From: Acidovorax sp. sic0104
GTDB lineage: Bacteria; Pseudomonadota; Gammaproteobacteria; Burkholderiales; Burkholderiaceae_C
NCBI RefSeq assembly: GCF_019219095.1
Contig: NZ_JAHUWH010000002.1
Span: 372,001 to 436,000 of the forward strand
Length of the DNA stretch: 64,000 nt
Direction of reading: 5' to 3'
This document shows, one piece after another, positions 3,307 through 58,071 of the stretch; the stretch's first letter is position 1, and each line of letters starts with the position of its first letter. The position numbers were made by a program, and so were the translations under genes. Under the pieces are notes generated by a model that made no database searches, was not told the DNA's origin, and worked only from the letters and a program-made list of their open reading frames with translations.

Positions 3307-3325
3307 GGGGTTCGGGGCTGCTCGA

Positions 3326-4327
3326 TTACTTGCGGATGCGGGCGAGTTCGCTGTTGTAGAGCTTGACGATGGCCGGGTCGTAGGTGGCGGCGAACTTCTC
3401 GATCACGGGCTTGGCGATCTGCTGCATGCGGGCCAGCTCGGCCGGCGCGATCTCGTTGTAGGCCATGCCCTTGGCCTGCAGGTCGCCCACGGACCTTTGG
3501 GCGGCGGCGCGGCTTACCTGCCGCTGGTAGCCGCGTGCCTCGTTGGCGGCGTCGTGCATCATCTTTTGCTCGGCGGGGGTCAGCTGGTCCCAGAACTTCT
3601 TGCTCACCAGCACGATGTTGGCGGCGTACACGTGGTTGGTCGCGCTCACGTATTTCTGCACCTCGAACATCTTGTTGGACAGGATCACCGCGAAGGGGTT
3701 CTCCTGCCCGTCCACGGCCTTGGCCTCCAGCGCGCCATACAGTTCGGCAAACGGCATCGGCACCGGGTTGGCCTTGAAGGCCTTGAAGGTGTCCAGGAAC
3801 ACCGGGTTCGGGATCACGCGCAGCTTCAGGCCGTCGAAATCCTCCGGTTTGGCGATGGGACGCTTGCTGTTGGTCACGTTGCGAAAGCCCAGATCCCAGT
3901 AGCCCAGGGCCACCAGGCCCTTCTCGGGGAGCCGGGCGATGAGCGCCTGGCCCAGCGGGCCGTCCAGCAGCGCATCAGCCTGCTCGAAGCTGGTCACCGC
4001 GAACGGGAAGTCCACCAGCCCGAACTCCTTGACGATGCCTGCCAGCGAGGTGGTGGCCGGGGCCGACATCTGCTGCACGCCGCCCTGCAGGGCCGACTGC
4101 TGCTGCAGCTCGTTGCCCAGTTGCGAGGCCGGGTATTCCTGCACCTTGAGCTTGCCGCCACTCTTGGCCGCCAGCAGTTCGGCGAAGCGCTTGACGCCGA
4201 AGCTCACGGGGTGGTCCGCGTTGTTCAGGTGGCCGAAGCGGATCACGCGCTCCTGCTGGGCTGCGGCAGGCAGGACGAGCAACAAGGACAGGCCGGCGGT
4301 TGCCAGAAGGCGGGCAGTGTTTCTCAC
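3326..4327 (-). CDS. dctP: TRAP transporter substrate-binding protein DctP
   Basis: 333 residues with a Sec signal peptide (RLLATAGLSLLLVLPAAAQ, cleavage about residue 23). The mature part starts VIRFGHLNNADHP, as in DctP/SiaP proteins. LKLRVIPNPVFLDTFKAF carries the conserved Arg (R in GLKLRVI) that binds the ligand carboxylate, followed by the family helix PMPFAELYGALEAKAVDGQENP. It captures a carboxylic acid in the periplasm and delivers it to DctQM. It is the first gene of the operon; the 190 bp upstream is shared with the divergent iclR gene and contains an IclR-type operator. Confidence 0.95.
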   Translation of the reverse strand: MRNTARLLATAGLSLLLVLPAAAQQERVIRFGHLNNADHPVSFGVKRFAELLAAKSGGKLKVQEYPASQLGNELQQQSALQGGVQQMSAPATTSLAGIVKEFGLVDFPFAVTSFEQADALLDGPLGQALIARLPEKGLVALGYWDLGFRNVTNSKRPIAKPEDFDGLKLRVIPNPVFLDTFKAFKANPVPMPFAELYGALEAKAVDGQENPFAVILSNKMFEVQKYVSATNHVYAANIVLVSKKFWDQLTPAEQKMMHDAANEARGYQRQVSRAAAQRSVGDLQAKGMAYNEIAPAELARMQQIAKPVIEKFAATYDPAIVKLYNSELARIRK

Positions 4328-6108: not shown

Positions 6109-6171
6109 TGCTATAAATTCAATAGCTATCAGCGCTTATACAGCAAGCGAAAAATGCCTTTCAGCGCTTGA
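6109..6171. repeat. TGCTAT...ATAGCT...GCGCTT dispersed repeat
   Basis: AT-rich relative to the surroundings: GCTATAAATTCAATAGCTAT followed by CAGCGCTTATACAGCAAGCG. It fills the whole ogt-SDR gap. It belongs to the same family as 11421-11486, 49408-49474, 58176-58196 and the two copies inside genes at 32166-32220 and 43427-43475. Confidence 0.8.
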
Positions 6172-10384: not shown

Positions 10385-11400
10385 CAGACCAGCTTGACCA
10401 GTTGCTTGCCGAAGTTCTTGCCCTTGAGCAGGCCGAGGAACGCTTCGGGTGCGGCGGCAATGCCATCCGCCACGGTCTCACGCGGGCGCAGCTTGCCGGT
10501 GCCGACCAGCGTGCCCAGCTCTTTGAGGGCCTCGGGCCAGACTTCCATGTGCTCGCTCACGATGAAGCCTTCGACCTTCATACGGTTGATGAGCATGAGC
10601 GCGGGGTTGGCCATGGGCAGCGGTGCACCGTCGTAGCCGGCGATCATTCCGCACAGGGCGATGCGGCTGAAGGCGTTCATGCGCAGCATCACGGCGTCCA
10701 TGATCCAGCCGCCCACGTTCTCGAAGTAGCCATCGATGCCGTTCGGGCAGGCTTCCTTCAGCGCCTTGGACATGGCCTTGACGTCGCCGTGCTGCTTGTA
10801 GTCGATGCAGGCGTCAAAGCCCAGTTCCTCCATGGCGTACTTGCATTTTTCAGCACCACCGGCAATGCCCACCGTGCGGCAGCCGCGCGCCTTGGCCAGC
10901 GCGGCAAACGCGCTGCCCACGGCGCCGGTGGCGGCGCTCACCACCACGGTGTCGCCCTCCTTCGGCGCAATGATCTTCACCAGGCCGTACCAGGCCGTCA
11001 CACCGGGCATGCCGACAGCGCCCAGGTAGTGCGACAGCGGCACATGGGCCGTGTCCACCTTGCGCAGCGCGCCGGGGGCATTGGCGTCGACCACGCTGTA
11101 CTCCTGCCAGCCGCCCATGCCCACCACCTTGTCGCCCACGGCGTACTTGGGGTGGCGGCTCTCGGCCACCTCACCCACGGTGCCGCCGATCATGACCTCG
11201 CCCAGGCCTTGCGACGCCGCGTAGCTCTTGCTCTCGTTCATGCGGCCACGCATGTACGGGTCCAGGCTCAGGTAGTGGTGGCGCACCAGCACCTGGCCGT
11301 CCTGCAGCGCAGGCGTATCGGTGGCGACCAGCTTGAAGTTGCTGGCCACGGCCTCGCCCTGGGGACGGTTGTCGAGAACGATTTGCTGATTGCGTGGCAT
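10384..11400 (-). CDS. Zinc-independent NADP-dependent MDR oxidoreductase (CurA/leukotriene B4 dehydrogenase-like)
   Basis: 338 residues of medium-chain reductase without the zinc ligands of alcohol dehydrogenases. The N-terminus PRNQQIVLDNRPQGEA, the SLDPYMRGRM motif, GAVGMPGVTAWYGL, the Rossmann motif VSAATGAVGS and GYFENVGG are typical of YncB/CurA enzymes that reduce the double bond of alpha,beta-unsaturated ketones with NADPH. The ribosome binding site AAGGAG is nine bases before the ATG. It is first in a coupled unit with the GNAT and aidB genes. Confidence 0.92.
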   Translation of the reverse strand: MPRNQQIVLDNRPQGEAVASNFKLVATDTPALQDGQVLVRHHYLSLDPYMRGRMNESKSYAASQGLGEVMIGGTVGEVAESRHPKYAVGDKVVGMGGWQEYSVVDANAPGALRKVDTAHVPLSHYLGAVGMPGVTAWYGLVKIIAPKEGDTVVVSAATGAVGSAFAALAKARGCRTVGIAGGAEKCKYAMEELGFDACIDYKQHGDVKAMSKALKEACPNGIDGYFENVGGWIMDAVMLRMNAFSRIALCGMIAGYDGAPLPMANPALMLINRMKVEGFIVSEHMEVWPEALKELGTLVGTGKLRPRETVADGIAAAPEAFLGLLKGKNFGKQLVKLV

Positions 11401-11420
11401 GGAAAACTCCTTGAACTATT

Positions 11421-11486
11421 TGCTACATTATTCATAGCTTTCATCGCTTACCCATCAAGCGATAGCAGCCATTTTTATTCAAATTT
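11421..11486. repeat. TGCTAT...CATAGCT...GCTT dispersed repeat
   Basis: TGCTACATTATTCATAGCTT is followed by TCATCGCTTACCCATCAAGC and an AT-rich tail, as in the copy at 49408-49474. It occupies most of the gap between the thioesterase and the oxidoreductase genes. Confidence 0.8.
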
Positions 11487-11495
11487 CCGGCAATC

Positions 11496-11999
11496 TCAAT
11501 CGGTGGAGATCACCTTGAGCCCGTGGGTGCTGCGGCCGTCCACCGGCAGGCGCTTGACGTACTTGAAGGTGCCGGTGGCATGGCTGCAGACCTTGCCTTG
11601 CGCGTCGTACACCGTGCCTTCGGTGAAGGCCATGGTGGCGGTGCGGTGGATGAGCCGCCCCTTGGCCACCAGCGGGCCACGGGCGGGCTGCATGAAGCTG
11701 GTCTTCATCTCGATGGTGACAACACCCATGTCAGGCGTCTCGCTGCGCGCGGCCGTGGCCATGGTCACATCCAGCAGCGTCATCGACGCGCCGCCGTGGG
11801 TCACGTCGAACGAATTCAGGTGCTCGGGCCTGGCTTCGTAGCGCAACTCGGATTCACCCTTCTCCATGCGGTGCAGGGTAAAGCCAAGGTGGCTGACAAA
11901 GGGGATCTCGACACCAAATTTCAGCACGGGCAACTCCAGGTTTTGTAGGGAGGCAAAAGCATACGCCTTCGCCTGCCACAGCGGCACAACCCCGGGCAT
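11496..11999 (-). CDS. PaaI/hotdog-fold thioesterase
   Basis: 167 residues from the ATG at 11999; an in-frame ATG at 12038 is also possible. Residues about 60-150 form a hotdog fold with LNSFDVTHGGASMTLLDVTMA, the typical His-Gly-Gly plus downstream Asp arrangement of acyl-CoA thioesterases, and VVTIEMKTSFMQPA. It probably releases free acid from an acyl-CoA, perhaps rescuing CoA during the adjacent degradation pathway. The ribosome binding site is weak for either start. It is separated from the following SDR by 66 bp. Confidence 0.82.
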   Translation of the reverse strand: MPGVVPLWQAKAYAFASLQNLELPVLKFGVEIPFVSHLGFTLHRMEKGESELRYEARPEHLNSFDVTHGGASMTLLDVTMATAARSETPDMGVVTIEMKTSFMQPARGPLVAKGRLIHRTATMAFTEGTVYDAQGKVCSHATGTFKYVKRLPVDGRSTHGLKVISTD

Positions 12000-13244: not shown

Positions 13245-15098
13245 TCAGAACGCGTCTTCCGGAAAGCTCGCGCAGGTCGCATCGCGCGTGCTCACCACCT
13301 GCAGCCAGGCGCCGATTTTCGGCAGCTCGTAATGGAAGAAGTAGCGCATGGCGCCCATGCGGCCCACGCTCGCGGGGCGCGTGAGGTCGGCATCCTGGGC
13401 CAGCGTGGCCAGGGCCAGGTCCAGCCACATCCAGGCCAGCACCGTGTGGCCAAAGGCCTGCATGTAGGGCACGGCATTGGCCAGCGCGTCGGCCGGCTGG
13501 CCCGTGGCCCAGGCAGCCTTGGTGGCGGCGCCCACCTGCTGCAGGGCGGCACCCAGCGCATTGGCATGCGCGGCCAGCGCGGGCACCTGGATCGCGCGCT
13601 CGATGGTGGCGTTGATGCGCCCGGCCAGCAGTGTGAGGCCACGCCCGCCTTCCATCAGCACCTTGCGGCCCAGCAGGTCCATGGCCTGGATGCCGTGGGT
13701 GCCTTCATGGATCATGTTCAGGCGGTTGTCGCGCCAGTACTGCTCCACCGGAAAGTCGCGCGTGTAGCCGTAGCCGCCGTGGATCTGGATGGCCAGCGAG
13801 TTGGCTTCCAGGCAGAACTCGCTGGGCCAGCTCTTGGCGATGGGCGTGAGCACTTCGAGCAGCAACCGCGCTTCGTCGGCCGAGGCCGTGTCACCGGTGT
13901 GCTGCTCGTCCACCAGCTTCGCGCAGAACAGGTTGAGCGCCAGCGCCCCTTCTCCGTACGACTTCTGGGCCAGCAGCATGCGCTTGACGTCGGCGTGCTC
14001 GATGATGCGCACCTGAGGCTGGGCTGCATCCTTGACCACCGCTGCGGCGCCATCCTTCGGGCCTTGCACCGGGCGGCCCTGAGGCCGGTTCTTCGCGTAG
14101 TCCAGGCTGGCGTAGTAACCCGCCAGGCCGAGCATGGTGGCGGCCATGCCAATGCCGATGCGGGCCTCGTTCATCATGTGGAACATGCAGGCCAGGCCCT
14201 TGCCCGGCTGGCCCACCAGGTAGCCCACGGCACCGGCCTGCCCGCCCACCGGGAACTTGCCTTCGCCAAAATTGAGCAGCGTGTTCGTGGTGCCGCGCCA
14301 GCCGAGCTTGTGGTTCAGGCCCGCCAGCGCCACGTCGTTGCGCTCGCCGGTCAGTTGGCCCTGTGCATCGACCATTTTCTTGGGCACGATGAACAGCGAG
14401 ATGCCGCGCGTGCCCGGCACCAGCTTGCCGTCCGGCCCCGGGATCTTGGCCAGCACCAGGTGCACGATATTCTCGGTCAGCTCATGGTCGCCCGAGCTGA
14501 TCCACATCTTGTTGCCCGTCAGGCGGTAGCGCGGGCCCAGCGGGTCGGATTCGAAGTCGGCACCATCGGGCACGGCGCGCGTGGCCACGTCCGACAGGGA
14601 CGAGCCCGCCTGCGGCTCGGACAAACACATGGTGCCCGACCAGCGGCCGTTGAATTCATTGAGCGCGAACACCTCTTTCTGCAGCGCCGTGCCGTGCGCC
14701 ATCAGCAGGTTTGCATTGCCCGAGGTGAGCAGGTTGGAGCCGATGCTGATCGACGCCACCGCGAAGAAGCTGTTGGCCGCGGCCTCCACGGCATAGGGCA
14801 GCTGCATGCCGCCGATCTCATAGTCCTGCGCGGCCGACAGCAGGCCCGATTCCGCGTAGGCCTTGCGGGCCTCGTAGGTGGCCTGGGGCAAGATGACCTT
14901 CTCGCCATCGAAGTGCGGCTCTTCGGTATCGACCGTGCGGTTGAACGGCGCGTACTTCTCGCGCGCGATGCGCTCGCAGGTGTCCAGCACCGCGTCGAAG
15001 GTCTCGCGCGAATGGTCGGCGAAGCGCTCGCGGGCCGAGAGGCTCTCTGCGGAGAGCCAGTCGTAGAGCAGGAAGTCGAGGGTGGAACGCAGGGTCAT
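13245..15098 (-). CDS. Long acyl-CoA dehydrogenase (DmdC/FadE-like, 617 aa)
   Basis: 617 residues from the ATG at 15098, which has an AAGGAGACC ribosome binding site. The ACAD core is visible: MCLSEPQAGSSLSDV (FAD contact), RYRLTGNKMWISSGDHE, LGWRGTTNTLLNFG, the IHGGYGYTRDFPVEQYWRD segment and IHEGTHGIQAMDLLGRK, where the Glu of HEGTHGIQA is the likely catalytic base. An N-terminal extension and a C-terminal helical domain of about 130 residues make it longer than the ~390-residue enzymes, as in 3-methylmercaptopropionyl-CoA dehydrogenase (DmdC) and related ACADs. Substrate chain length is not readable. It is co-directional with the thiolase and FadB-like genes. Confidence 0.92.
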   Translation of the reverse strand: MTLRSTLDFLLYDWLSAESLSARERFADHSRETFDAVLDTCERIAREKYAPFNRTVDTEEPHFDGEKVILPQATYEARKAYAESGLLSAAQDYEIGGMQLPYAVEAAANSFFAVASISIGSNLLTSGNANLLMAHGTALQKEVFALNEFNGRWSGTMCLSEPQAGSSLSDVATRAVPDGADFESDPLGPRYRLTGNKMWISSGDHELTENIVHLVLAKIPGPDGKLVPGTRGISLFIVPKKMVDAQGQLTGERNDVALAGLNHKLGWRGTTNTLLNFGEGKFPVGGQAGAVGYLVGQPGKGLACMFHMMNEARIGIGMAATMLGLAGYYASLDYAKNRPQGRPVQGPKDGAAAVVKDAAQPQVRIIEHADVKRMLLAQKSYGEGALALNLFCAKLVDEQHTGDTASADEARLLLEVLTPIAKSWPSEFCLEANSLAIQIHGGYGYTRDFPVEQYWRDNRLNMIHEGTHGIQAMDLLGRKVLMEGGRGLTLLAGRINATIERAIQVPALAAHANALGAALQQVGAATKAAWATGQPADALANAVPYMQAFGHTVLAWMWLDLALATLAQDADLTRPASVGRMGAMRYFFHYELPKIGAWLQVVSTRDATCASFPEDAF

Positions 15099-45848: not shown

Positions 45849-46664
45849 TCAGCGACGGTCCTGGCGACGCGCAAACGCCAAGGCGGCCTGCAGCATGCGC
45901 TGCAGGTGCGGCTGCACACCGGCGGCCACCTCGGGCAGGTAGTCGAACGGCAGTGCCTCCTGCATGTAGCTGCACTGCGTCATCTCCAACTGCACCGCGT
46001 GGATGTTCTGCGCGGGCTGGCCGTAGTGGCGCGTGATGTGCCCGCCCTTGAAGCGGCCATTGAGCACGCCGGTGTAGCCGGGCGCAGACTGGGCGATGGC
46101 CAGCAGCGACTGCGCCAGCGCCGGGTCGCAGCTGGCTCCATCGGCCGTGCCCAGGTTCAGGTCGGGCAGCTTGCCCTCAAAAAAACGCGGCAACACCGAA
46201 CGGATGGAATGCGCATCCCACAGCACCGCCACGCCATGCTGCGCGCGGATGCGGTCCAGCTCGGCACGCAGTTGCGCGTGGTAAGGCGCCCAGACGGCGT
46301 CGCGGCGCGCGGCCACCTCGGCGTCATCGGGCACATCGCCCTGCGCATAGATGGGCGTGTCGTCGAAGGTGTCCACGGGGCACAGGCCGGTGACGCTCTG
46401 GCCGGGGTACAGACTGGCGCCATCCGGAGGACGGTTCAGATCGACCACATACCGTGAATGGGTCGCCACCAGGATGGAGGCGCCCATATCTTTGGCAAAC
46501 GCATACAGCCGCTCCATGTGCCAGTCGGTGTCGGGCACCTGGCGGGCCTCGTCGGTGAAGCGCGCTGCCAGCGCGGGCGGCACGTAGGTGCCCGCATGGG
46601 GCATGGAGACCAGCAAGGGCACGGTACCCTGGTGGAAGTTGAAGGGTGGGGGCGTCGTGGTCAT
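45849..46664 (-). CDS. hutG: N-formylglutamate deformylase
   Basis: 271 residues from the ATG at 46664. N-formylglutamate amidohydrolase features: LLVSMPHAGTYVPP, DTDWHMERLYAFAKDMGAS, ATHSRYVVDLNRPPDGASLYPGQ, VLWDAHSIRSVLPRFFEGKLPDLNLGT and GGHITRHYGQP. The His and Asp residues in SMPHAG, DAHS and GGHITRHYG are likely metal ligands. It hydrolyses N-formyl-L-glutamate to glutamate and formate, the last step of the five-step histidine route. It is the last gene of the hut operon, 37 bp after hutF. Confidence 0.95.
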   Translation of the reverse strand: MTTTPPPFNFHQGTVPLLVSMPHAGTYVPPALAARFTDEARQVPDTDWHMERLYAFAKDMGASILVATHSRYVVDLNRPPDGASLYPGQSVTGLCPVDTFDDTPIYAQGDVPDDAEVAARRDAVWAPYHAQLRAELDRIRAQHGVAVLWDAHSIRSVLPRFFEGKLPDLNLGTADGASCDPALAQSLLAIAQSAPGYTGVLNGRFKGGHITRHYGQPAQNIHAVQLEMTQCSYMQEALPFDYLPEVAAGVQPHLQRMLQAALAFARRQDRR

Positions 46665-46701
46665 GAGGGGGCACGTGGTTGGAGTGGAAGAACCCGGGGT
46701 T

Positions 46702-48102
46702 TCAGCCCGCCGCGATGGTGGTGGAGCGCGCCGCCACAAAGGCCAGCGCGGCCGCGTCGTGCAGGGCATGGCGGCCTTGCGCCACGCGCTGCACACCCGC
46801 CACCCACAGACTGTCGATGGCCGAGGTGCGGTGGCTGCCGAACACATGGGATGACAACATGCTGGGGGCGGGCAGGCCCGCCAGCGCCACATGCTGCGCA
46901 TCCAGCGCGACCATGTCGGCCTGCTGGCCCACTGCAAGGCCTGCCGGACCCGCAGGGCCACCGACCGTTCGGCCAGACGCTTGCGCCCCGCCCTGCACCG
47001 CCTGCAGCATCATGGCAGTGGCCACGTCGGTCTGGCTGCGGCTGGCCAGCACGTTGCGCTGGCGCAGCGACAGGCGCTGGCCGTATTCGAGCATCAGCAG
47101 CTCCTCGGCCGCATTCACGCAGGCGTGGCTGTCCGAGCCCACGCCCCAGCGCCCGCCGTGCTGCAGCCACAGCGGCATGTCGAAGATGCCGTCACCCAGG
47201 TTGGCCTCCGTGGTGGGGCAGATGCCTGCCACCGCGCCCGTGCGCGCTGCGTCCTGGTACTCCAGCGGCGTCATGTGCGTGGCATGCACCAGGCACCAGC
47301 GCTCATCCACCGGCGCATGGTCGAGCAGCCACTGCACGGGGCGCTGGCCGCTCCAGGCGATGCAGTCCTCCACCTCCTGTGTCTGCTCGGCAATGTGGAT
47401 GTGGATGGGGGCCTGCGCGCTCAGTGCCGTGAGGCCTTGCACGGCGGCGGCCAGGCTGTCGGGCGGCACGGCGCGCAGCGAATGCGGGGCCAGGCCCACA
47501 ATGCCACCCAGCGCCTGTGCGGCGGGCGCAATGCGCTCCAACAAGGAGAGCATGTTGTCGGTGCTGCGAATGAAGCGCGCCTGGTCGGCGCGCGGCGGCT
47601 TGGCACCAAAACCGCTGGTCTGGTACAGCACCGGCAGCAGCGTGATGCCAATGCCTGCATTTCCTGCCGCGCGCAGCAGCGCCAGCGAGAGCGTGGCGTC
47701 GTCGGCATACGGCGTGCCATCCTGGTCGTGGTGCACGTAGTGGAACTCGCACACGCTGGTGTAGCCCGCCTCCAGCATCTCCACATACAGCCAGGTGGCG
47801 ATGGCCTCCAGCGATTCGGGCGTAATGCGTGCGGCAAAGCGGTACATCAGGTTGCGCCAGCTCCAGAAGCTGTCCTGGCTTTCAGCGCGGTACTCGGTCA
47901 GGCCCGCAAACGCGCGCTGAAAGGCGTGCGAGTGCAGGTTGGGCATGCCGGGGATCACCGGGCCCGGCGCAATGGCTGCGCCCTCAGGCCGCTGCGCACC
48001 GGGCGTGACGGCGGTAATGCGCCCTGTCCCGTCCCAGGCGATGAGCACGTCGCGCGCCCAGCCGGTGGGCAGCAGCGCGTTGGCAGCAAAAATCTGGCTC
48101 AT
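46702..48102 (-). CDS. hutF: Formimidoylglutamate deiminase
   Basis: 466 residues from the ATG at 48102. Amidohydrolase superfamily: metal ligands in [22 protein letters not shown] and LVHATHMT, and the Asp in [37 protein letters not shown] is typical of HutF. It converts N-formimidoyl-L-glutamate to N-formylglutamate and ammonia, so the pathway proceeds by HutF/HutG rather than by a one-step formiminoglutamase. The start overlaps the hutI stop (ATGA). Confidence 0.96.
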
Positions 48103-49376
48103 GCCTGGCCTCCATGAATGCGCCCCTGCCGAACGATGGTGCAAGCTGGCTTGTGGCCAAACCAGTAGGCCAGCTCGGCCGCCTCACCCACGGGCCACAG
48201 CACGAAGTTGGCGGGTCGGCCGGACGCGATGAGGCCATGGGAGTCTTGCAGGCCCAGCGCGCGCGCGGCATGGGTGGTGATGCCCGCCAGCGCCTCGGGC
48301 ACCGTCAGGCGGAACAGCGTGCACGCCATGTTGGCCATGAGCAGCAGGCTCAGCGCCGGCGAAGTGCCGGGGTTGTGGTCGGTGGACACCGCCATGGCCA
48401 CGCCCGCTTCACGCAGTTGCGCGATGGGCGGCAGGTGCGTGTCGCGCAGCGTGTAGTAGGCGCCGGGCAGCAGCACGGCCACGGTACCTGCGGCTTTCAT
48501 CGCAGCAATGCCATCCGCAGACAGGTGTTCGATGTGGTCGCACGACAGCGCGCCATACCGTGCTGCCAGGGCCGATCCACCCATGTCAGACAGCTGCTCG
48601 GCGTGCAGCTTGACGGGGATGCCGCTCTTGCGTGCGGCCCGGAACACCTGCTCCGTTTGGGCCAGCGTGAAGGCGATGCGTTCGCAGAACACATCGACGG
48701 CATCCACCAGGCCTTCGGCCGCGAGCGCAGGCAGCATCTCGTTGCAGACCAAGTCGGTGTAGTCCTGGCTGCGGCCTGCGTACTCCGGCGGCAGCGCATG
48801 CGCGCCGAGGAAGGTGGTACGCACCGTGACGCCGAAGGCTTCGCCCAGGCGGCGGGCCACGCGCAGTTGCTTGCGCTCATGTTCCAGTGCCAGGCCATAG
48901 CCGGACTTGATCTCGATGGCGCACACGCCTTCTGCGAGCAAGGCTTGCAGGCGCGGCGCGGCCTGGGCAAAGAGCTCGTCTTCCGACGCAACGCGCGTGG
49001 CCTTCACCGACGACACAATGCCCCCACCCGCCTGGGCTACTTCTTCATAGGTGGCACCGGCCAGGCGCATGGCGAACTCGTTGGCACGCTGGCCGCCGTA
49101 GACCAGATGTGTGTGGCAATCCACCAGCCCGGGCGTGGCAAGCGCGCCCCGCGCATCGTGGCGCGGCAATGCCTGGTAAGCGGCGGGCAACTGCGCCTCG
49201 GGGCCTACCCAGGCCATCTGGCCTTGCTGCACTACCACGCAGGCGTGCTGGCCCTCCGGCACGGGCACATCGGCCACCCACAGGCCGGGCGCGGGTTTCA
49301 GGTTTTGCCACACGCCGTCGGCGTTCTGGCTGGCGGCCGACCCGCTCGGGTGGCCGTGGTTGTCCATGTGTTGCAT
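48099..49376 (-). CDS. hutI: Imidazolonepropionase
   Basis: 425 residues from the ATG at 49376; GTG at 49388 and ATG at 49367 are alternatives. Amidohydrolase with metal ligands in [12 protein letters not shown], then [41 protein letters not shown] and [10 protein letters not shown]. It hydrolyses 4-imidazolone-5-propanoate to formimidoylglutamate. An N-terminal stretch of about 40 residues precedes the core. The stop is coupled to hutF. Confidence 0.96.
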
Positions 49377-49407
49377 CTGCCTGCCCACCCACGGGCTCCG
49401 TGTTGAA

Positions 49408-49474
49408 TGCTATACAAATAATAGCTACCAGCGCTTATCCATCAAGCGTTAGCGGCCATTCTTATTCAATTTTT
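49408..49474. repeat. TGCTAT dispersed repeat at the 3' end of hutD
   Basis: TGCTATACAAATAATAGCTA, CCAGCGCTTATCCATCAAGC and GTTAGCGGCCATT with an AT tail. Its right end supplies the last codons and stop of hutD (49466-49474). It is the clearest full copy of this family in the window. Confidence 0.85.
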
Positions 49475-50095
49475 GGGGGCTGCGGCGCGCTGCAAGGCAA
49501 TCCAGACCAGCGCGGGCGCGCTGGCGGCGGCATCCACAGGCTCCAGCCGACCCGGCGTTGCACCGCCCTCGCCCGCCCACCAAAAGCCTTGCCCTGCGGC
49601 CAGTGCGTGCGGCCCGGCGCCTGGCACCACCCAATGCCAATCGCCCTTCAGCACCAGGCACAGGCCTGCGGGCGTGGCGCCGGGCGACTGCGCACCGCCC
49701 ACCACCTGAAGCGGCCCGTGCCAAAGGCCCCGCCGCAGCATGAGATTGAAGTCCCTGGACGCGCCGCCCAGCATGGCGCCGTCCACCGCGTCATCGCCCG
49801 AGAACGCGAACGGCTGCCAGCGCTGCTCCAGGCGATGCTCCCAGCCAGGGCTGCGCAATTGCAGGCCATCTCCAGAGAGCAGCATGATCTGCCGGTCAAT
49901 GGCCGGGAAGACCGAGAACGGACCAGGCCGGTCCACCGTGGCCAGGCTCACGCGCCACTCAAAGCTGTTCATGTCCGCGCCGGGGGGCCAGCAGGCCAGC
50001 TCCTGCGTGCTGCCGCCGCCGTTTTTCCAGGGCATGCTGGGCGTGGTGGCCAGGTCAAAAAAATGCATCGCCATCGTTGTTGTCGTCGTGTCCAT
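49466..50095 (-). CDS. hutD: HutD-family protein
   Basis: 209 residues from the ATG at 50095, whose first base overlaps the upstream stop (TGATG); MHFFDLATTPSMPWKNGGG at an internal ATG is the family start. HutD is a cupin-fold protein of hut operons: WKNGGGSTQELACWP, FEWRVSLATVDRPGPFSVFPAIDRQI and DFNLMLRRG. It is thought to bind N-formylglutamate-like metabolites and tune hut activity; the molecular role is not settled. Its last residues (KN) and stop come from a dispersed repeat. Confidence 0.93.
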   Translation of the reverse strand: MDTTTTTMAMHFFDLATTPSMPWKNGGGSTQELACWPPGADMNSFEWRVSLATVDRPGPFSVFPAIDRQIMLLSGDGLQLRSPGWEHRLEQRWQPFAFSGDDAVDGAMLGGASRDFNLMLRRGLWHGPLQVVGGAQSPGATPAGLCLVLKGDWHWVVPGAGPHALAAGQGFWWAGEGGATPGRLEPVDAAASAPALVWIALQRAAAPKN

Positions 50096-50976
50096 CAGGA
50101 TGTTGCGGTGGCCTGCCCGGCACCCGAAACCAGCAGCGGGAACAGCGGGTGGTCCATCTCGGCCCCGGCGGGCAGCTCGTCGGCCAGGCCGGGAAACTCG
50201 GGCGAGGTCTTCCACGGCCGGGGCGCATGGCGCGTGTCGTCGCCCAGAAAGCGCACCGAAAACACGCGGCGGCGGCGGGTGCCCTCCACCCCACCCGCCG
50301 CATGCAGCGTGAGCATGTGGAAACACACCACGTCGCCGGGCTCGATCTCCCAGCCCACGATGGGGAAGGCATCGCGGTCGGCCTCGACGTTGGGCAGGTC
50401 CTGCAGGCTGCCTTCGGGGAACCACTTGGCCTGGTTGTCCATGAACGTGCGCGGCATGAGCCACGGCCCCTTGTGCGAACCGGCCACAAACTCCAGCGTC
50501 GCAGCGCGAGATACCGGATCGACCGGAATCCACATGCTGACGTTCTGCATGCCGTCGATGTTGTAGTAGGGCTGGTCCTGGTGCCAGGGCGTGCGCTGGC
50601 GCGTGCCCGGCTCCTTGACCAGCACATGGTCGTGGTACAGCCGCACGGTGCGCGACTGCATCAGGCGCTGCGCGGCCAGGGCCAGCGGTGTATCGCGCAC
50701 AAAGCGGCTGAACTGCGGGATGTCCCGCCAGTTGCAGAAGTCCTCGAAGAACCGGCCCGGGTCATCCGGACGGCTGGCCACCTTGGCGCGCGGGCTGGGC
50801 GCGGCGAGGTTGGCGTCGATGCCATCGCGCAGCAGCGCGACCTCATCGGGCGAGAGCAGTTGCCTGATGCAGATGGCACCGTCGCGGGCGAAGTCTGCCA
50901 CCTGCTGGTCGCTCAGCCGCTCACGCAGGCGCGCTTGCCATGGCTGCTGCAAATCCCCAGACGAAACATCGGACAT
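50095..50976 (-). CDS. Phytanoyl-CoA dioxygenase (PhyH)-family oxygenase in the hut operon
   Basis: 293 residues. Iron(II)/2-oxoglutarate oxygenase: the facial triad is His132 and Asp134 in TPWHQDQPYY and His225 in MLTLHAAGG, with the 2-oxoglutarate Arg in RRRVFSVRF (about 236-242). LRDGIDANLA and GSHKGPWLMP are PhyH features. The reaction is hydroxylation or oxidative demethylation of a small molecule. It is not part of known histidine degradation, yet it is flanked by hutU (54 bp) and coupled to hutD, so an imidazole substrate is an attractive inference. Start at 50976 has AGGTGAGGTGCC upstream. Confidence 0.9.
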   Translation of the reverse strand: MSDVSSGDLQQPWQARLRERLSDQQVADFARDGAICIRQLLSPDEVALLRDGIDANLAAPSPRAKVASRPDDPGRFFEDFCNWRDIPQFSRFVRDTPLALAAQRLMQSRTVRLYHDHVLVKEPGTRQRTPWHQDQPYYNIDGMQNVSMWIPVDPVSRAATLEFVAGSHKGPWLMPRTFMDNQAKWFPEGSLQDLPNVEADRDAFPIVGWEIEPGDVVCFHMLTLHAAGGVEGTRRRRVFSVRFLGDDTRHAPRPWKTSPEFPGLADELPAGAEMDHPLFPLLVSGAGQATATS

Positions 50977-51030
50977 GGCACCTCACCTCCAGATCAAATT
51001 GACACACAGATCCCGCAAGTATCGGCGGGC

Positions 51031-52755
51031 TTACTTGATCATCGGCAGCTTCAGGCCCTGCTTCTTGGCTGTTTCCACGGCCAGTTCGTAGCCCGCGTCG
51101 GCATGGCGCATCACGCCGCTGCCGCAGTCATTCACCAGCACGCGCGCCAGGCGCTCGGCTGCTGCGTCCGTGCCATCGGCCACGATGACCATGCCCGAGT
51201 GCTGCGAGTAGCCCATGCCCACGCCGCCGCCATGGTGCAGGCTGACCCAGGTGGCGCCACCTGCGGTGTTGAGCAGCGCATTGAGCAGCGGCCAGTCGCT
51301 CACGGCGTCGGTGCCGTCCTTCATGGCTTCGGTCTCGCGGTTGGGGCTGGACACGCTGCCGGTGTCCAGGTGGTCGCGGCCAATGACGATGGGCGCCTTC
51401 AGCTCGCCGTTTTTCACCATCTCGTTGAAGGCCAGGCCCGCGATGTGGCGCTCGCCCAGGCCCAGCCAGCAGATGCGTGCGGGCAGCCCCTGGAAGGCGA
51501 TGCGCTCGCCCGCCATGTCGAGCCAGCGGTGCACGTGTTTGTTCTCGGGGAAAAGCTCCTTGATCTTGGCGTCGGTCTTGCGGATGTCTTCCGGGTCGCC
51601 CGAGAGCGCCACCCAGCGGAACGGGCCCTTGCCTTCGCAGAACAGCGGGCGGATGTAGGCCGGCACAAAGCCCGGGAAGTCGAACGCGTTCTTCACACCT
51701 TCGTCGAACGCCACCTGGCGGATGTTGTTGCCATAGTCCACGGTGGGTATGCCCATGGCCTGGAAGTCGAGCATGGCCTGCACGTGCACGGCACAGGACT
51801 TGGCGGCTGCCTTCTTCAGCACGTCGTGCTGGGTCACATCCTGCTGGGCGGCACGCCACTGCGCCACCGTCCAGCCGGCGGGCAGGTAGCCGTTGACGAG
51901 GTCGTGGGCCGAGGTCTGGTCGGTGACCAAATCGGGCTTGAGGCCACCGGCCTTGGCACGCCTGACGAGTTCCGGCAAGACCTCGGCCGCATTGCCCAAC
52001 AAGGCGATGGAGATGGCCTCCTTGGCGGCCGTGTGCTGCTCGATGAGTTCGATCGCGTGATCAATGTCGCGCGCCTGCTTGTCCACGTAACGTGTGCGCA
52101 GGCGGAAGTCGATGCTGCTTTGCTGGCATTCGATGTTGAGCGACACCGCACCCGCAAACGTGGCGGCCAGCGGCTGCGCGCCCCCCATGCCGCCCAGGCC
52201 GGCCGTGAGAATCCATTTGCCCGCCAGCGAGCCGCCGTAGTGCTGGCGGCCGGCTTCGGCAAAGGTCTCGTAGGTGCCCTGCACGATGCCTTGCGTGCCG
52301 ATGTAGATCCAGCTGCCCGCCGTCATCTGGCCATACATGAACAGGCCCTTCTGGTCCAGCTCGCTGAAGTGTTCCCAGTTGGCCCACTTGGGCACCAGGT
52401 TGGAGTTGGCCAGCAGCACGCGCGGTGCGTTGGCGTGGGTCTTGAACACGCCCACGGGCTTGCCGGACTGGATGAGTAGCGACTCGTCCTCGTTCAGGTC
52501 CTTGAGCGAAGCAAGGATCTGGTCAAAACACTCCCAGTTGCGCGCAGCGCGGCCAATGCCGCCGTACACCACCAGGTCCTGCGGGCGCTCGGCCACTTCG
52601 GGGTCGAGGTTGTTCTGAAGCATGCGGTAGGCGGCCTCGGTGAGCCAGCTCTTGCAGGTGAGCTGGCTGCCGCGCGGCGCGCGGATCACGCGGCTGGCGT
52701 CGTGGCGGGGGTCGGTGTTGGAGGCGGCGGCAATGATGGCGTCGTTGGCGTTCAT
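51031..52755 (-). CDS. hutU: Urocanate hydratase
   Basis: 574 residues; bacterial urocanases are about 555-560. The NAD site includes [14 protein letters not shown] (185-197). The active-site Cys lies in [40 protein letters not shown] and [16 protein letters not shown] are strongly conserved. It adds water to trans-urocanate to give imidazolonepropionate, using NAD+ as an electrophile. Ribosome binding site CAGGAG is seven bases before the ATG. hutH is 39 bp upstream. Confidence 0.97.
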
Positions 52756-52794
52756 GGTGGGCTCCTGTGAATCAGTGGGTGTGCGTGGAAAAAA

Positions 52795-54333
52795 TCAGGC
52801 AAAGCTGGGCAGGCATTGCGTGAGCGCTGCGGGCCAGGTGGCCTGCTGGGCCCAGGCGCGCATGGCTTCGATGTCGGGGGCGAGGTAGCGGTCCTGCTCC
52901 AGGTAGGCCACGCGCTCGCGGATGGCGGCGAATTGCTCCTCCACCAAAGGTGAAGACTTGAGACTGCGGTCGAACTCCATGCCCTGCGCGGCTGCCATGG
53001 CCTCGATGCCGACCATCACTGCCGCATTGCGCACCATGTCACCCAGGCGGCGCGCGCCGTAGGTGGCCATGGAAACATGGTCTTCCTGGTTGGCCGATGT
53101 CGGCAGGCTGGTCACGCTGCTGGGGTTGGCCAGGCACTGGTTTTCAGCGGCCAGCGCTGCGGCAGTGACCTGGGCGATCATGAAACCCGAATTCACGCCG
53201 CTGTCGCGGATCAGGAACGCGGGCAGGCCCGAGAGGCCGGGGTCCAGCAGCAGCGACAGGCGGCGCTCGGAAATCGCGCCGATCTCGGCAACTGCGAGCG
53301 CGATGATGTCGGCCACAAAGGCCACGGGCTCGGCGTGGAAGTTGCCGCCGGAGATCACGTCGCCGTTGTCGAAGACCAAGGGGTTATCGGACGCCGCATT
53401 CGCCTCGATGGTGAGCACACGGGCAGCGTGGTGCAGGTTGTCCAGGCATGCGCCCATCACCTGCGGAACGCAGCGGATGGAGTATGGGTCTTGCACACGA
53501 CCGCAGTTCGGGTGCGAGGGGTCGATGGCGCTGCCGTCGAGCAGCGCGCGCACGGCGGCGGCCACGGCGATCTGCCCGGCCTGGCCACGTGCTTCGTGGA
53601 TGCGCGCGTCAAAGGGCTTGACCGAGCCCTTGATGGCTTCAAGCGAAAGGCAGCCCGCCACCAGCGCGGCCGCGAACACGCTCTCGGCGCCAAACAAACC
53701 GGCCAGTGCGAGCGCGGTGGACACCTGTGTGCCGTTGAGCAGCGCCAGCCCTTCCTTGGGGCCCAGCACAAAGGGCTGCAGGCCGATGGAACGCATGGCC
53801 TCGGCACCGGGCACCACCTTGCCATCTACCTTGGCCTGCCCTTCCCCAATCAGCACGCAGGCCATGTGCGCCAGCGGCGCCAGGTCGCCCGATGCACCCA
53901 CAGAGCCCTTGGCCGGGATCACCGGCAGCACATTGGCATTGGCCAGGGCCAGCAATGCATCCACCAGCTCGGGCCGCACGCCCGAATGGCCACGCGACAG
54001 GCTCACGGCCTTGGTGGCCAGGATGAGGCGCACCACGTCGTCGGGCAGCGGATCGCCCGTGCCCACGCTGTGCGACAGCACCAGGTTGCGCTGCAGCTCG
54101 GCCAGGCGGTCGTGCGCGATCTTGGTGCTGGCCAGCTTGCCAAAGCCGGTGTTGATGCCATAGACCACCTGGTCTTCATCGACGATGCGCTGCACCGTGG
54201 CCAGGGATTTGTGCAAACCTGCGCGTGCCGACGCATCGAGCACCAGTTGCACAGGGCCCGCGTGGATGCGGCGCAGCTCGGCCAGCGTGACGCGGCCGGG
54301 GTGCAGAGTGATGGGTGATGTGTTCTGTGTCAT
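52795..54333 (-). CDS. hutH: Histidine ammonia-lyase
   Basis: 512 residues from the ATG at 54333. The MIO prosthetic group forms from Ala147-Ser148-Gly149 in [28 protein letters not shown] supplies the catalytic Tyr, and [14 protein letters not shown] and FHAEPVAF follow the family. It deaminates L-histidine to urocanate. It is the first gene of the hutHU-PhyH-DIFG operon, and a HutC-type palindrome lies 10-23 bp before the start codon. Confidence 0.97.
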
Positions 54334-54342
54334 GGCGTTGAT

Positions 54343-54356
54343 CCTGTATATACAAG
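54343..54356. promoter_or_regulatory. HutC-type operator before hutH
   Basis: CCTGTATATACAAG, palindromic core TGTATATACA (54345-54354), lies immediately upstream of the hutH start. It differs by one base from the site at 58058-58071. TTGTATATACAA-like palindromes are the kind of site bound by HutC. A partial second site (CTTGTACCTA on the minus strand) adjoins it. Confidence 0.8.
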
Positions 54357-54438
54357 TAGGTACAAGCGAAAAATAAGCAGCGTTAATTTGTTCTTCAAAT
54401 CCTGTCAGCCAATCCCGCAACGGGTGAAACTGCCACGG

Positions 54439-54531
54439 CACCCGCGAGAGACGCCGAGCAAGAGCCGCCCCGCAGCGAGGGCGTCGTCCCCCTTGAGGGG
54501 GAAGGCGCGAAGCGACTCAGGGGGTGCTTCA
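54439..54531. repeat. Dispersed intergenic repeat, CCCCTGAGTCGC... family
   Basis: GAGACGCCGAGCAAGAGCCG, CCCCGCAGCGAGGGCGTCGT, then CCCCCTTGAGGGGG and GCGCGAAGCGACTCAGGGGG. Opposite orientation to the copy at 2685-2800. It separates hutC from hutH. Confidence 0.8.
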
Positions 54532-54534
54532 TAT

Positions 54535-55347
54535 TCAACCGGCGACGGGATTGCCGTCGGCTCGGAAGCGGCTGCCCAAACGGTAGCGGGTGGCAGGGTG
54601 CAAACACCGCACCACGGTGATCGGCACCCCGCGCGACCAGGTGCGGCGGGTGAGCAGCAGGCATGGCTCCTGAGGCGACATTTCCAGCAGCGTCGCCTGT
54701 TCGGCGGTGGGCATGACGGCATCGACCACATGCTCGATCTGGTCGAAGGGCACGTTGCGCACAAGGTATTCGGAAGGTTGCAGTTGCGTGAAGTCCTGCG
54801 CGGCGAACTGGGGCACCTGGCGCGGGTTCACATGGCGGTCTTCAAGCTGCACGGGCAGGCCGTCCTCGCGGTGGATGCACAGCGAGTGGAACACCGACTC
54901 GCCCGTGCGCAGGTCCAGCGCAGCGGCCACTTCGAGCGTGGCCGAGATGCGCTCCACCGCCAGCACGTCGCAGCGATAGTCGTGCCCGCGCTGGCGGATC
55001 TCGCCAGCCAGGTTGGCGATCTGCAGCAGCGTGGACTGGGGCTTGTCTTCCGCCACGAAGCTGCCTACACCGGCCACGCGCACGATGCGGCCCTGCTCCA
55101 CCAGCTCACGCAGCGCGCGGTTGACCGTCATGCGCGAGATGCCGAACTGGGTGACCAGTTCGTTCTCGGACGGCAGGCGGTCGCCCGCACGCCAGATGCC
55201 TTCCTGGATCTTGCGCGAGATATGGTCCTTGACCTGCTCGTACAGCGCCATGGCCTGCGCGGGCGCAGCCACGGCGACCACGGCCCTGGCAGGCGTGGCG
55301 CTGCGCGGTGCAGTGGCTGCGGTGCGGCGGGATGGGCGGGCGCTCAT
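54535..55347 (-). CDS. hutC: Histidine-utilisation repressor HutC (GntR family)
   Basis: 270 residues from the ATG at 55347. After an Ala/Arg-rich leader of about 30 residues, the GntR winged helix covers about 33-100 (ALYEQVKDHISRKIQEGIWRAGDRLPSENELVTQFGISRMTVNRAL). The UTRA effector domain follows (DVLAVERISATLEVAA, LCIHREDGLPVQLEDRHVNP, LTRRTWSRGVPITVVRCLHPATRYRLGS). HutC represses hut genes and is released by urocanate. It sits 19 bp after the ABC ATPase gene, so it is probably the last gene of the transporter operon and subject to its own control. Confidence 0.95.
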   Translation of the reverse strand: MSARPSRRTAATAPRSATPARAVVAVAAPAQAMALYEQVKDHISRKIQEGIWRAGDRLPSENELVTQFGISRMTVNRALRELVEQGRIVRVAGVGSFVAEDKPQSTLLQIANLAGEIRQRGHDYRCDVLAVERISATLEVAAALDLRTGESVFHSLCIHREDGLPVQLEDRHVNPRQVPQFAAQDFTQLQPSEYLVRNVPFDQIEHVVDAVMPTAEQATLLEMSPQEPCLLLTRRTWSRGVPITVVRCLHPATRYRLGSRFRADGNPVAG

Positions 55348-55366
55348 GGGCTGGTGCGGGTTCAGA

Positions 55367-56146
55367 TCAGTGCAGGTCCGCCGCCATGGATTCAGCGCGG
55401 ATCTCTTCGGTGAGGCGCGCCTTGAGGTCCATGAACTCGGGGCTGGTCTTGATCGTGTAGTGGCGCGGGTGCGGCAGGTCCACCGCCAGCTCGGTCTTGA
55501 TGCGGCCGGGCCGGGCGCTGAACACGGCCACGCGGTTGGCCATGAAGATGGCTTCATCGATGTCGTGGGTGACAAACAGCACCGTCTTGCGCTCGGACTC
55601 CCAGATGCCGAGCAGCAGCTCCTGCATGAGCACGCGGGTCTGGTTGTCCAGCGCGCCGAAGGGCTCGTCCATCAGCAAGATCTTGGGGTCGTTGGCCAGC
55701 GCGCGCGCAATGGCGGTGCGTTGCTGCATGCCGCCCGACAGCTGCTTGGGAAAGTGCTGCTCGAAGCCACGCAGGCCCACCTTGGCGATGAAGTACGCGG
55801 CGCGTTCCTTTTGCTGCGATTCGGGCATGCCGCGCTCGCGCAGGCCAAAGCGGATGTTCTGCTCGATGGTGAGCCAGGGGAAGAGCGTGTAGCTCTGGAA
55901 CACCATGCCGCGGTCGGCGCCCGGGCCGTCCACCGGCGCACCGTCGAGCAGCACGCGGCCGCTGGTGGCGTGGTCCAGCCCCGCCACGATGCGCAGCAGG
56001 GTGGATTTACCGCAGCCCGAGGGGCCGAGGATGGTCACGAAGTCGTTGTCCTGCACCTCGAAGTCGACAGGCTGCAGCGCCTGTGTGCGCTGGCCCTTGG
56101 CGGTCTCGAAGACGCGCGAGACGGCTTGGATGGATACGCTGCTCAT
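55367..56146 (-). CDS. NitT/TauT-type ABC transporter ATPase
   Basis: 259 residues from the ATG at 56146. Walker A is GPSGCGKST, the Q-loop is VFQSYTLFPW, the signature is LSGGMQQRTAIARA, Walker B is ILLMDEPFGALD, and the switch His is in VTHDIDEA. This matches the SsuB/TauB/NrtD class. It powers uptake through the coupled permease; its start overlaps the permease stop (ATGA). The operon lies under a HutC-type operator, so an imidazole compound such as histidine or urocanate is a likely ligand. Confidence 0.93.
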   Translation of the reverse strand: MSSVSIQAVSRVFETAKGQRTQALQPVDFEVQDNDFVTILGPSGCGKSTLLRIVAGLDHATSGRVLLDGAPVDGPGADRGMVFQSYTLFPWLTIEQNIRFGLRERGMPESQQKERAAYFIAKVGLRGFEQHFPKQLSGGMQQRTAIARALANDPKILLMDEPFGALDNQTRVLMQELLLGIWESERKTVLFVTHDIDEAIFMANRVAVFSARPGRIKTELAVDLPHPRHYTIKTSPEFMDLKARLTEEIRAESMAADLH

Positions 56147-56979
56147 CGCACAAAGCTCCAGGCAAACAGGCGGTGGTTGAGCGCCTTGAAGGCGAAGTCG
56201 GACACCAGCCCGATGAGGCCGATGATGATGATGCCGAAGATGATCTGGCCGGTATTGAGCAGCGACTGGCTGTCGGTGATCATGTGGCCGATGCCGCTCG
56301 ACGAGCCGATCAGCTCCGCCACGATCACATAGGTCCAGGCCCAGCCCAGCACCAGGCGCAGTGTCTCGGCGATCTCGGGCGCAGCGCCGGGGATCAGCAC
56401 CCGCGTGACGATGCCCTTGTGGCCCGCACCCAGCGTGTAGGCAGCCTCCACCAGGTCGCGCCGCGCGCCGCCCACGGTGACGGCCACCATCAGCGTGATC
56501 TGGAAGACCGAGCCGATGAAGATGACGAGGATCTTCTGCGTCTCTCCGATGCCGGCCCACAGGATGAGCAGCGGGATGAAGGCCGACGCGGGCAGGTAGC
56601 GGCAGAACGAGACGAAGGGCTCGAAGAATGCCTCGATGCCCTTGTACGCGCCCATCGCGATGCCCAGGGGCACGGCGATGACGGCGGCCAGGATGAAGCC
56701 GCCGAACACGCGCCACACCGTCATGCCGATGTCCTTGTGAAAGCCGTACTCGCTGAACAACAGCCAGCCTTCCTTGGCCATGGTGACAGGGCTGGCCAGG
56801 AAGGTAGGCGACACGAAGCCGCCCAGTGTGAAGAACGCCCACACCAGCACGAACAACACAAAAAAACCGAAGCCCAGCAGCCAGCGGGCACGGGCACTCA
56901 CAGGCTCCAGGGGAGCGAGCGAGCGCCGGCGCACGGGGGCTTGGGGCGTGGTCACGGGCAGAGGTTGCACAGCAGACAT
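56143..56979 (-). CDS. NitT/TauT-type ABC transporter permease
   Basis: 278 residues with six or seven hydrophobic segments after a Pro/Arg-rich N-terminus. The inner-membrane permease signature for ATPase docking is in EAAYTLGAGHKGIVTRVLIPGAAPEI (EAA loop). GMTVWRVFGGFILAAVIAVPLGIAMG is typical of SsuC/TauC proteins. It is coupled to the ATPase and follows the binding protein by 25 bp. Confidence 0.93.
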   Translation of the reverse strand: MSAVQPLPVTTPQAPVRRRSLAPLEPVSARARWLLGFGFFVLFVLVWAFFTLGGFVSPTFLASPVTMAKEGWLLFSEYGFHKDIGMTVWRVFGGFILAAVIAVPLGIAMGAYKGIEAFFEPFVSFCRYLPASAFIPLLILWAGIGETQKILVIFIGSVFQITLMVAVTVGGARRDLVEAAYTLGAGHKGIVTRVLIPGAAPEIAETLRLVLGWAWTYVIVAELIGSSSGIGHMITDSQSLLNTGQIIFGIIIIGLIGLVSDFAFKALNHRLFAWSFVR

Positions 56980-57004
56980 GGCGCGTTCTTCTTCCAGGAA
57001 CGAT

Positions 57005-57970
57005 TTACTTGATGAAGCTCGCGTCGAAAGTGACGTTCAGATCCTCGGGCCCCTTGCGGATGATGCCGGCCTCGAGAAGGATGGCCGTGGCGTCCTTCAT
57101 GAACGCGGTCAGCTCGCCCGCAAAGAACTTCTGGTTGGCGGCCTTGTCCTGCCAGCGCAGGAAGGACGACGACTTGGCAAACTGCTCGCCCGTCTGCTTG
57201 ACCGCCGCGCCCATGATCTCGTTGGACTTGGCCGGGTCGGCCTTGATCATGTCGAGTGCCTGGAAGTACGAGTTGGCCAGGGCCTGTGCGGCCTTGCCGT
57301 TGGCCTTGAGCCAGGTGGGGTCGCAACCCACGGTGTCCATCACCATGGGGTAATCGAGCGTGGTGGCCAAGATCTTGCCCGCAGCAGGGTTGTCGCGCAC
57401 GGTAGACAGGTACGGCTCGTACGTCATGGCGGCGTCGTTCTGCCCCGCCACGAAGGCCTGGGCAGCGGCCTGAGGCGACAGCGTGGTGGTCTTCACGTCC
57501 TTGAGGCTCATGCCGTTCTTACTGAGCATCCAGGCCAGACCGAAATACGGGGCGGTGCCGGGCGCATCCACGCCGATGGTCTTGCCCTTGAGGTCCGCAA
57601 AGCCCTTGATGTCGCCACGCACCGCAATGCCGTCGGCGCCGTAGGACTTGTCCATCTGGAAGATCTGCACGATGGGCACGCCGTTGGCGTTCCAGGCCAC
57701 GTGCGTCTCGACCGTGGTGGCGGCGCACTGGATGGACTTGGAAGCCAGTGCGAGGTGGCGATCCTTCTGCGGGATCATCTTGATCTCCACATCCAGGCCG
57801 TTCTTCTTGAAGATGCCCGCCTTGTCGGCCAGCGTCAGCGGCGCAAAACCCGTCCAGCCGGACATGCCCAGCACAATCTTGGTCTCTTGCGCCTGGGCCG
57901 GTGCGGCCATTGCCATCACGCAGGCCGCTGCCGCTGCCAGCGACGTCCATTTCACAACCGATCGAGTCAT
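57005..57970 (-). CDS. NitT/TauT-type ABC transporter substrate-binding protein
   Basis: 321 residues from the second of two adjacent ATGs (57970; the first is at 57973), with AGGAG upstream. The Sec signal is SLAAAAACVMAMAAPAQAQ. The mature part starts TKIVLGMSGWTGFAPLTLADKAGIFKKNG, the NMT1/TauA-like fold, with GFADLKGKTIGVDAPGTAPYFGL. It is the first gene of the transporter-hutC operon, with a perfect HutC-type palindrome 88 bp upstream. The ligand is inferred to be histidine, urocanate or a relative. Confidence 0.92.
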   Translation of the reverse strand: MTRSVVKWTSLAAAAACVMAMAAPAQAQETKIVLGMSGWTGFAPLTLADKAGIFKKNGLDVEIKMIPQKDRHLALASKSIQCAATTVETHVAWNANGVPIVQIFQMDKSYGADGIAVRGDIKGFADLKGKTIGVDAPGTAPYFGLAWMLSKNGMSLKDVKTTTLSPQAAAQAFVAGQNDAAMTYEPYLSTVRDNPAAGKILATTLDYPMVMDTVGCDPTWLKANGKAAQALANSYFQALDMIKADPAKSNEIMGAAVKQTGEQFAKSSSFLRWQDKAANQKFFAGELTAFMKDATAILLEAGIIRKGPEDLNVTFDASFIK

Positions 57971-58057
57971 CATCTGCTCCTGTTTGAAGAAAGTACCTTT
58001 GCCCACTCCGGCCGGGTCGCACCCGCTTCCAGCCGCCATGATGACAGTCCGAGCATA

Positions 58058-58071
58058 CCTGTATATACAGG
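58058..58071. promoter_or_regulatory. HutC-type operator before the ABC transporter operon
   Basis: CCTGTATATACAGG is a perfect 14 bp palindrome, 88 bp upstream of the binding-protein start. Thirteen of fourteen bases match the site before hutH. This is direct support for common control. Confidence 0.82.

Follow-up and report, generated by a model that had tools for sequence, protein, structure and literature searches.

Why should an operon that burns histidine carry an oxygenase? In its textbook form, the hut catabolic route proceeds without an enzyme of this kind. Nevertheless, in a 64,000-nucleotide stretch of DNA from Acidovorax sp. sic0104 (contig NZ_JAHUWH010000002.1, positions 372,001 to 436,000; hereafter the window), a gene for a PhyH-family Fe(II)/2-oxoglutarate (Fe/2OG) oxygenase, here called phyH, lies among the genes for histidine degradation. 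An earlier note on this DNA had described the gene as embedded in the hut operon, joined to hutD by a TGATG junction, 54 bp from hutU, and endowed with an intact metal triad; this description is confirmed by the sequence, the family cut-offs, and the invariance of the triad. A PhyH oxygenase joined to hut was not found among the open-licence papers listed, which is not proof of absence; two of these papers (PMC4401554 and PMC12892962) contain both "hut operon" and "dioxygenase".

The oxygenase gene and its operon

The phyH open reading frame (ORF; 50095–50976, minus strand) encodes 293 amino acids from an ATG start, with GGAGGTGA located six bases 5' of this start. The protein belongs to the PhyH family (98 bits against Pfam PF05721, cut-off 22), and its confident AlphaFold2 model (mean pLDDT 89) has the fold of the PhyH oxygenases. 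The HxD...H metal triad (His132, Asp134, and His225) is intact, and its residues are invariant in all aligned rows (49 hut-linked, 17 Limnohabitans-type, 5 Legionella, 10 Burkholderia-type, 25 other orthologs, and 16 distant relatives). The protein is thus a member of the Fe/2OG oxygenase family, and 2-oxoglutarate-dependent activity is predicted for it. Relatives are abundant (7427 of 7999 scored candidates matched in one search), and those that are named among the 120 listed bear family-type names only. The closest, 94% identical, comes from an Acidovorax metagenome-assembled genome; the window genome is Acidovorax-like.

Read along the minus strand, the genes follow the order hutC, hutH, hutU, phyH, hutD, hutI, hutF, hutG, which makes a complete hut operon. 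Six of the products exceed their NCBIfam equivalog cut-offs: histidine ammonia-lyase HutH (52795–54333, start codon read; TIGR01225, 675.9 bits, cut-off 539), urocanate hydratase HutU (51031–52755, ending 54 bp before phyH; TIGR01228, 958.7 bits, cut-off 375), imidazolonepropionase HutI (48099–49388; TIGR01224, 464.7 bits, cut-off 298), formimidoylglutamate deiminase HutF (46702–48144; TIGR02022, 586.6 bits, cut-off 413), N-formylglutamate deformylase HutG (45849–46667; TIGR02017, 376 bits, cut-off 279), and the repressor HutC (54535–55347; TIGR02018, 308.3 bits, cut-off 220). The hutC ORF is open to 55575, and its start was set to agree with the 270-aa HutC of an Acidovorax facilis locus (L006; compared loci carry L numbers and genomes G numbers). 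HutD (49466–50095) passes the Pfam HutD cut-off with 165.5 bits. The stop codon of phyH and the ATG of hutD share one base in the sequence TGATG; a downstream ATG (MAMHFF), favoured by the gene caller in L006, is an alternative hutD start. The TGATG junction is also present in L013, L019, L021, and L096, and phyH ends in an ATGA junction in L055, L092, L094, and L095. Because such junctions recur in relatives, coupling of phyH and hutD is likely.

The operator of the histidine repressor has the consensus TGTA-N2-TACA in PMC12977541, a text in which the word "dioxygenase" does not occur. The window contains two perfect matches, where 0.03 would be expected with up to one mismatch. One of them, TGTATATACA at 54345–54354, lies 11 nt upstream of the hutH ATG and is predicted to control hutH-hutU-phyH-hutD-hutI-hutF-hutG. 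The other (58060–58069) stands in front of a unit composed of an ABC transporter and hutC. Since phyH is downstream of the first operator and the intergenic gaps are short, co-regulation with hut is the expected reading. Gene order and gaps suggest that phyH is carried on the hutH transcript, and it would be induced through the release of HutC.

The transporter of the second unit (55367–58039, minus strand, upstream of hutC) is of the NMT1/SsuA type according to the family search and comprises an ATPase, a permease (named by position), and a binding protein, which scores 102.8 bits for the SsuA family, below the cut-off of 163.5. Boxes with at most one mismatch precede the same type of transporter in Variovorax and others. 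Because HutC boxes precede it, the transporter is probably a hut importer, though its nearest family is named for sulfonates. In Acidovorax GW101-3H11 (locus L010), mutant fitness is reported to have assigned the transporter genes of this operon to L-histidine. The available portion of PMC9007349 does not mention Acidovorax.

Two further features of these operons were observed. A 19-base motif, AATAGCTACCAGCGCTTAT, occurs in the hutD-hutI gap (49420–49438) and again at 6121–6139, with at most one mismatch; two copies compare with 0.01 expected with up to three mismatches, and the motif looks like an interspersed repeat. In L006, an alpha/beta-hydrolase-like gene (10864–11700, 279 aa, named by eye) is located between hutI and hutF.

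Recurrence of the linkage across genomes

Among 299 genomes of the same family, 42 carry a close PhyH (E ≤ 1e-60), 155 carry urocanase, and 36 carry both. Urocanase is therefore found in 36 of the 42 carriers against 155 of 299 genomes overall (odds ratio 7, Fisher p 9e-7, on the assumption that both counts come from the same 299 genomes, which are related and not independent). No urocanase was found in the other six carriers, one of which is only 74% complete. In 24 of the 36 genomes with both genes, the two lie at most 6.2 kb apart; one of the 24 (G217) has unrelated genes between them, and some of the other 12 genomes are on fragmented contigs. The binomial tail for 24 of 36 within 8 kb (2e-50) was not used as a probability because the test assumes independence and the genomes are related; the Fisher test shares this weakness to a milder degree.

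The way in which phyH joins hut differs between lineages. Acidovorax has hutU-phyH-hutD-hutI, with or without the transporter block in between. In five loci (L055, L091, L092, L094, and L095), hutC-phyH-hutD diverges from hutU; hutI comes next in four of the five, hutD was recognised by eye in three, and an ATGA junction leads into phyH in L055, L091, L094, and L095. Other arrangements are hutH-phyH-hutU (L053), hutU-phyH-hutD-hutH (L027), hutU-hutH-transporter-phyH-hutI (Pseudomonas taeanensis, L059), hutU-hutH-permease-phyH (L069), and hutH-antiporter-M20-phyH (Halomonas, L062 and L083). The Halomonas mini-cluster in L083 (627–7411) consists of a MocR-like regulator (by eye), a true hutH with a HutC box, a YfcC-like antiporter, an ArgE-like M20 hydrolase, and phyH; hutU and hutI were not found in that stretch. 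In the compared loci, the names IclR, MocR, LysR, permease, and alpha/beta-hydrolase, where given without a family search, were assigned by eye or taken from the annotation of the record. Starts set by the gene caller are rough (about 20 codons late in L098), and L001–L003 are too short for annotation.

Rows were labelled "hut" when one or more Hut genes above 45% identity lay within 9 kb. This label, borne by 51 rows in a tree of 122 proteins, requires 12 changes, at least six of them forced by well-supported branches; shuffled labels require about 39. The approximately unbiased (AU) test rejects one hut-linked clade as the sole origin of these rows (p 2.4e-8; thinned set of 59 rows, 29 of them hut, chosen by the author). 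Linkage to hut thus recurs on scattered branches, on which gains are not distinguishable from losses. Two "hut" rows are probably accidental (L075 with HutI only, and L097, from G217, with unrelated genes in between), L062 and L083 have HutH only, and L024 and L050 stop at contig ends. The tree omits L086, L118, L119, and L127, where phyH was not called, and L063, L065, and L076, which are missing from the neighbour list.

All 130 loci (2.0 Mb) together contain 42 exact HutC operators against 0.55 expected under a mononucleotide model, a count inflated by near-identical Acidovorax loci. A second PhyH clade, 42–45% identical to the window protein, is also preceded by HutC operators. In L098, phyH, which leads into an ABC transporter and hutC-hutH-hutU, has a one-mismatch box 19 nt upstream of its likely ATG and an exact box some 200 bp further upstream. 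L096 (genome G142) contains two PhyH genes in one hut locus (3191–4051 and 14033–14845; 79% and 42% identical to the query); they lie about 10 kb apart and flank hutC-hutH-hutU and transporter genes, and an exact box is located 209 bp before the second, a position that places it upstream of a divergent gene as well. L116, which is alphaproteobacterial, has an exact box in the interval that separates a true hutC (249.5 bits, cut-off 220) from phyH. In the alphaproteobacterial L114 (8264–11681), a histidine-ammonia-lyase-like gene stands one gene from phyH, with a perfect box 28 bp upstream of the lyase gene; its product scores 528.0 for the hutH equivalog, slightly short of the cut-off of 539.15, and slightly exceeds the subfamily cut-off (528.6 against 524). 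That stretch holds phyH, a LysR gene (by eye), and the lyase-like gene, and other hut genes were not recognised in it. The Burkholderia-type L110 has a true HutC gene (299 bits, cut-off 220) beside a binding protein-phyH pair; no HutC box was found there, so this neighbour was kept as weak support only. Chance adjacency of phyH and hut was considered and rejected on the basis of the co-occurrence, the distance, the operator, and the repeated arrangements.

Candidate substrates and reactions

What, then, might the enzyme act on? Its nearest characterised relative is MysH, the Fe/2OG oxygenase of palythine biosynthesis (PDB 9c9n, 9ci4), which is 27% identical to the window protein and similar to it in fold. 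MysH is known from cyanobacterial sunscreen gene clusters and acts on a mycosporine-like amino acid, whereas the window locus is a hut operon: the genes at 45849–58039 are hut and transport genes, not genes of mycosporine biosynthesis. The canonical HutC-controlled hutFCHUIG genes of Pseudomonas share their enzymes, repressor, and operator consensus TGTA-N2-TACA with the window, but the gene list in the abstract of PMC12772324 has no oxygenase, whereas the window operon has one.

Transport genes provide a further hint. Amino-acid-type substrate-binding proteins lie within four genes of phyH in 36 of 121 cases, a count likewise raised by the near-identical Acidovorax loci, and amino-acid transport genes adjoin phyH in several contexts, which would fit an enzyme that acts on a histidine-like compound taken up by the cell. 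The protein after phyH in L114 was considered as a binding protein and excluded from this count, since it has no NCBIfam match and matches only itself. On a Rhizobium Ti plasmid (L086, 7986–12120), an amino-acid-type transporter operon with an adjacent LysR regulator comes after a phyH relative. This layout resembles opine uptake operons; the opine operons of Ti plasmids have LysR regulators and ABC transporters of this type.

Taken together, PhyH is tentatively read as an accessory oxygenase under HutC control that acts on an imported histidine-like amino acid bearing a modification, perhaps by N-dealkylation with release of free histidine into HutH, although this falls short of an even chance. 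A small histidine-like amino acid carrying a modification would be taken up by the cell. Soluble PhyH would then convert it, with O2 and 2-oxoglutarate, into succinate, CO2, and a hydroxylated substrate, the hydroxyl group most likely being placed on the carbon that adjoins the nitrogen in the N-substituent. The substituent would depart as an aldehyde or an oxo-acid, as proposed for MysH, and free histidine could enter HutH. Within this scheme, the amino-acid nature of the substrate, the position before HutH, and the catalytic activity itself are suggested by family and gene context, while the N-dealkylation chemistry and the identity of the removed group are guesses, as are N-methyl and imidazole variants of the modification. 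It is rather doubtful, but conceivable, that these features amount to a salvage branch of histidine catabolism, undescribed so far, in which a HutC-controlled Fe/2OG N-dealkylase frees histidine from an N-modified environmental form and has been recruited repeatedly into hut operons and kept by bacteria that lost hut. Candidate substrates would be N-methylhistidine (muscle proteins, anserine) or N-carboxyalkyl histidine (a histidine opine or glycation product).

Several observations weigh against the proposal of a histidine-related accessory enzyme. In the family, 119 of the 155 urocanase genomes have no close PhyH relative, which agrees with the claim of the earlier note that the known Hut pathway needs no oxygenase and therefore makes phyH an optional accessory. 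Only two of 369 genomes sampled from the class match at E ≤ 1e-85, one of them being the window genome itself. Urocanase occurs with 23 of 29 additional relatives from across the phylum, but never within 20 kb of phyH; it comes closest in G329, at about 23 kb, where hutC and a box adjoin phyH. Many orthologs are solitary, with unrelated genes around them, and in the 20 listed loci without hut genes or hutC no TGTNTANACA box was found before phyH. With regard to the chemistry, the mechanism of MysH is itself a prediction in the paper on it, and a formaldehyde-handling gene was not noticed beside phyH, although no search aimed at one was made. Finally, salvage of histidine does not account for the purine operon in which phyH of Limnohabitans is found.

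The purine context is nevertheless informative. The Limnohabitans-type protein keeps 134 of the 140 hut-conserved residues, and urocanase is absent from both tested genomes of this type (G189 and G264), so the substrate is probably not a Hut intermediate and could be, for example, a modified histidine ahead of HutH. The earlier note had proposed that a modified histidine or imidazole may be turned into a substrate for HutH or HutU. This is partly supported: the operon, the HutC box, the recurrent linkage, and the amino-acid transport genes would suit an enzyme for an imported histidine-like compound, and the Limnohabitans case disfavours a HutU substrate. The purine operon (PuuE-UraD/allantoate amidohydrolase-M20) exists without phyH in the four relatives compared, three of which also have PbuX in the stretch; therefore, phyH seems to have been inserted into it. 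The search for purine gene families covered only L045, from an uncultured betaproteobacterium; all-against-all BLAST shows that the Limnohabitans loci share its gene clusters, and within this group of 17 rows three (L035, L037, and L040) have some but not all purine genes beside phyH. PhyH was also considered as a missing urate oxidase of the Limnohabitans-type loci; in L045, the protein at the start of the locus resembles, by eye, the membrane urate oxidase PuuD. The M20 hydrolase, which phyH follows in both Limnohabitans and Halomonas, was considered as a partner that would imply an acylated substrate; this was dropped, as the Limnohabitans-type M20 belongs to the purine operon and shares only 24% identity with that of Halomonas.

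Among the other explanations, it is somewhat unlikely that PhyH hydroxylates an unmodified free amino acid (histidine or another basic one) as proline hydroxylase or GriE do, yielding a sink, a signal, or a building block rather than fuel. The amino-acid hydroxylases H11 (proline hydroxylase) and GriE, together with the ectoine hydroxylase EctD, are 15–22% identical to the window protein, which scores far below the cut-offs for ectoine hydroxylase (TIGR02408, 23 bits against 336.5) and 1-deoxypentalenic acid hydroxylase (NF045813, 26.5 bits against 550). Diverting histidine within an operon for burning it makes little metabolic sense, and no enzyme using such a product was recognised nearby by eye. 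Demethylation of a methylated nucleoside or nucleobase, with the hut location reflecting general nitrogen scavenging, has a model in the 2'-O-methyl nucleoside demethylases FJS and PHYHD1. This is distinctly unlikely: no PHYHD1 chain was found by sequence search at E ≤ 10, the PhyH model is closer in fold to MysH, SnoN/SnoK, and the hydroxylases of proline and leucine, phyH looks inserted in the purine operon, and the repeated siting behind HutC boxes and beside amino-acid-type binding proteins would be left unexplained. FJS was found through a screen with a pyrimidine auxotroph. The text of the FJS paper does not mention Burkholderi, Legionella, or Acidovorax, and its only mention of an operon is pyr.

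A role in the repair or oxidation of a side product of the Hut pathway (for example, cis-urocanate or a derivative of imidazolonepropionate or imidazolepropionate) would suit the frequent proximity of phyH to hutD and hutI and its place after the same operator, but it seems improbable given the almost unchanged Limnohabitans enzyme in genomes without urocanase and the six family carriers in which none was found. An enzyme removing an N-methyl group from the imidazole ring common to methylhistidines and 7-methylpurines would unite the hut and purine contexts, in both of which it is almost unchanged; this is pure inference, with no methylated-histidine or caffeine-type gene recognised beside phyH by eye, and it is regarded as the least likely of these alternatives.

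That unrelated lineages place an oxygenase behind the operator of the histidine repressor suggests that the hut route has a substrate still missing from the known scheme, most simply a modified histidine. Control by HutC would narrow the search for the substrate of this PhyH subfamily to a short, testable list.
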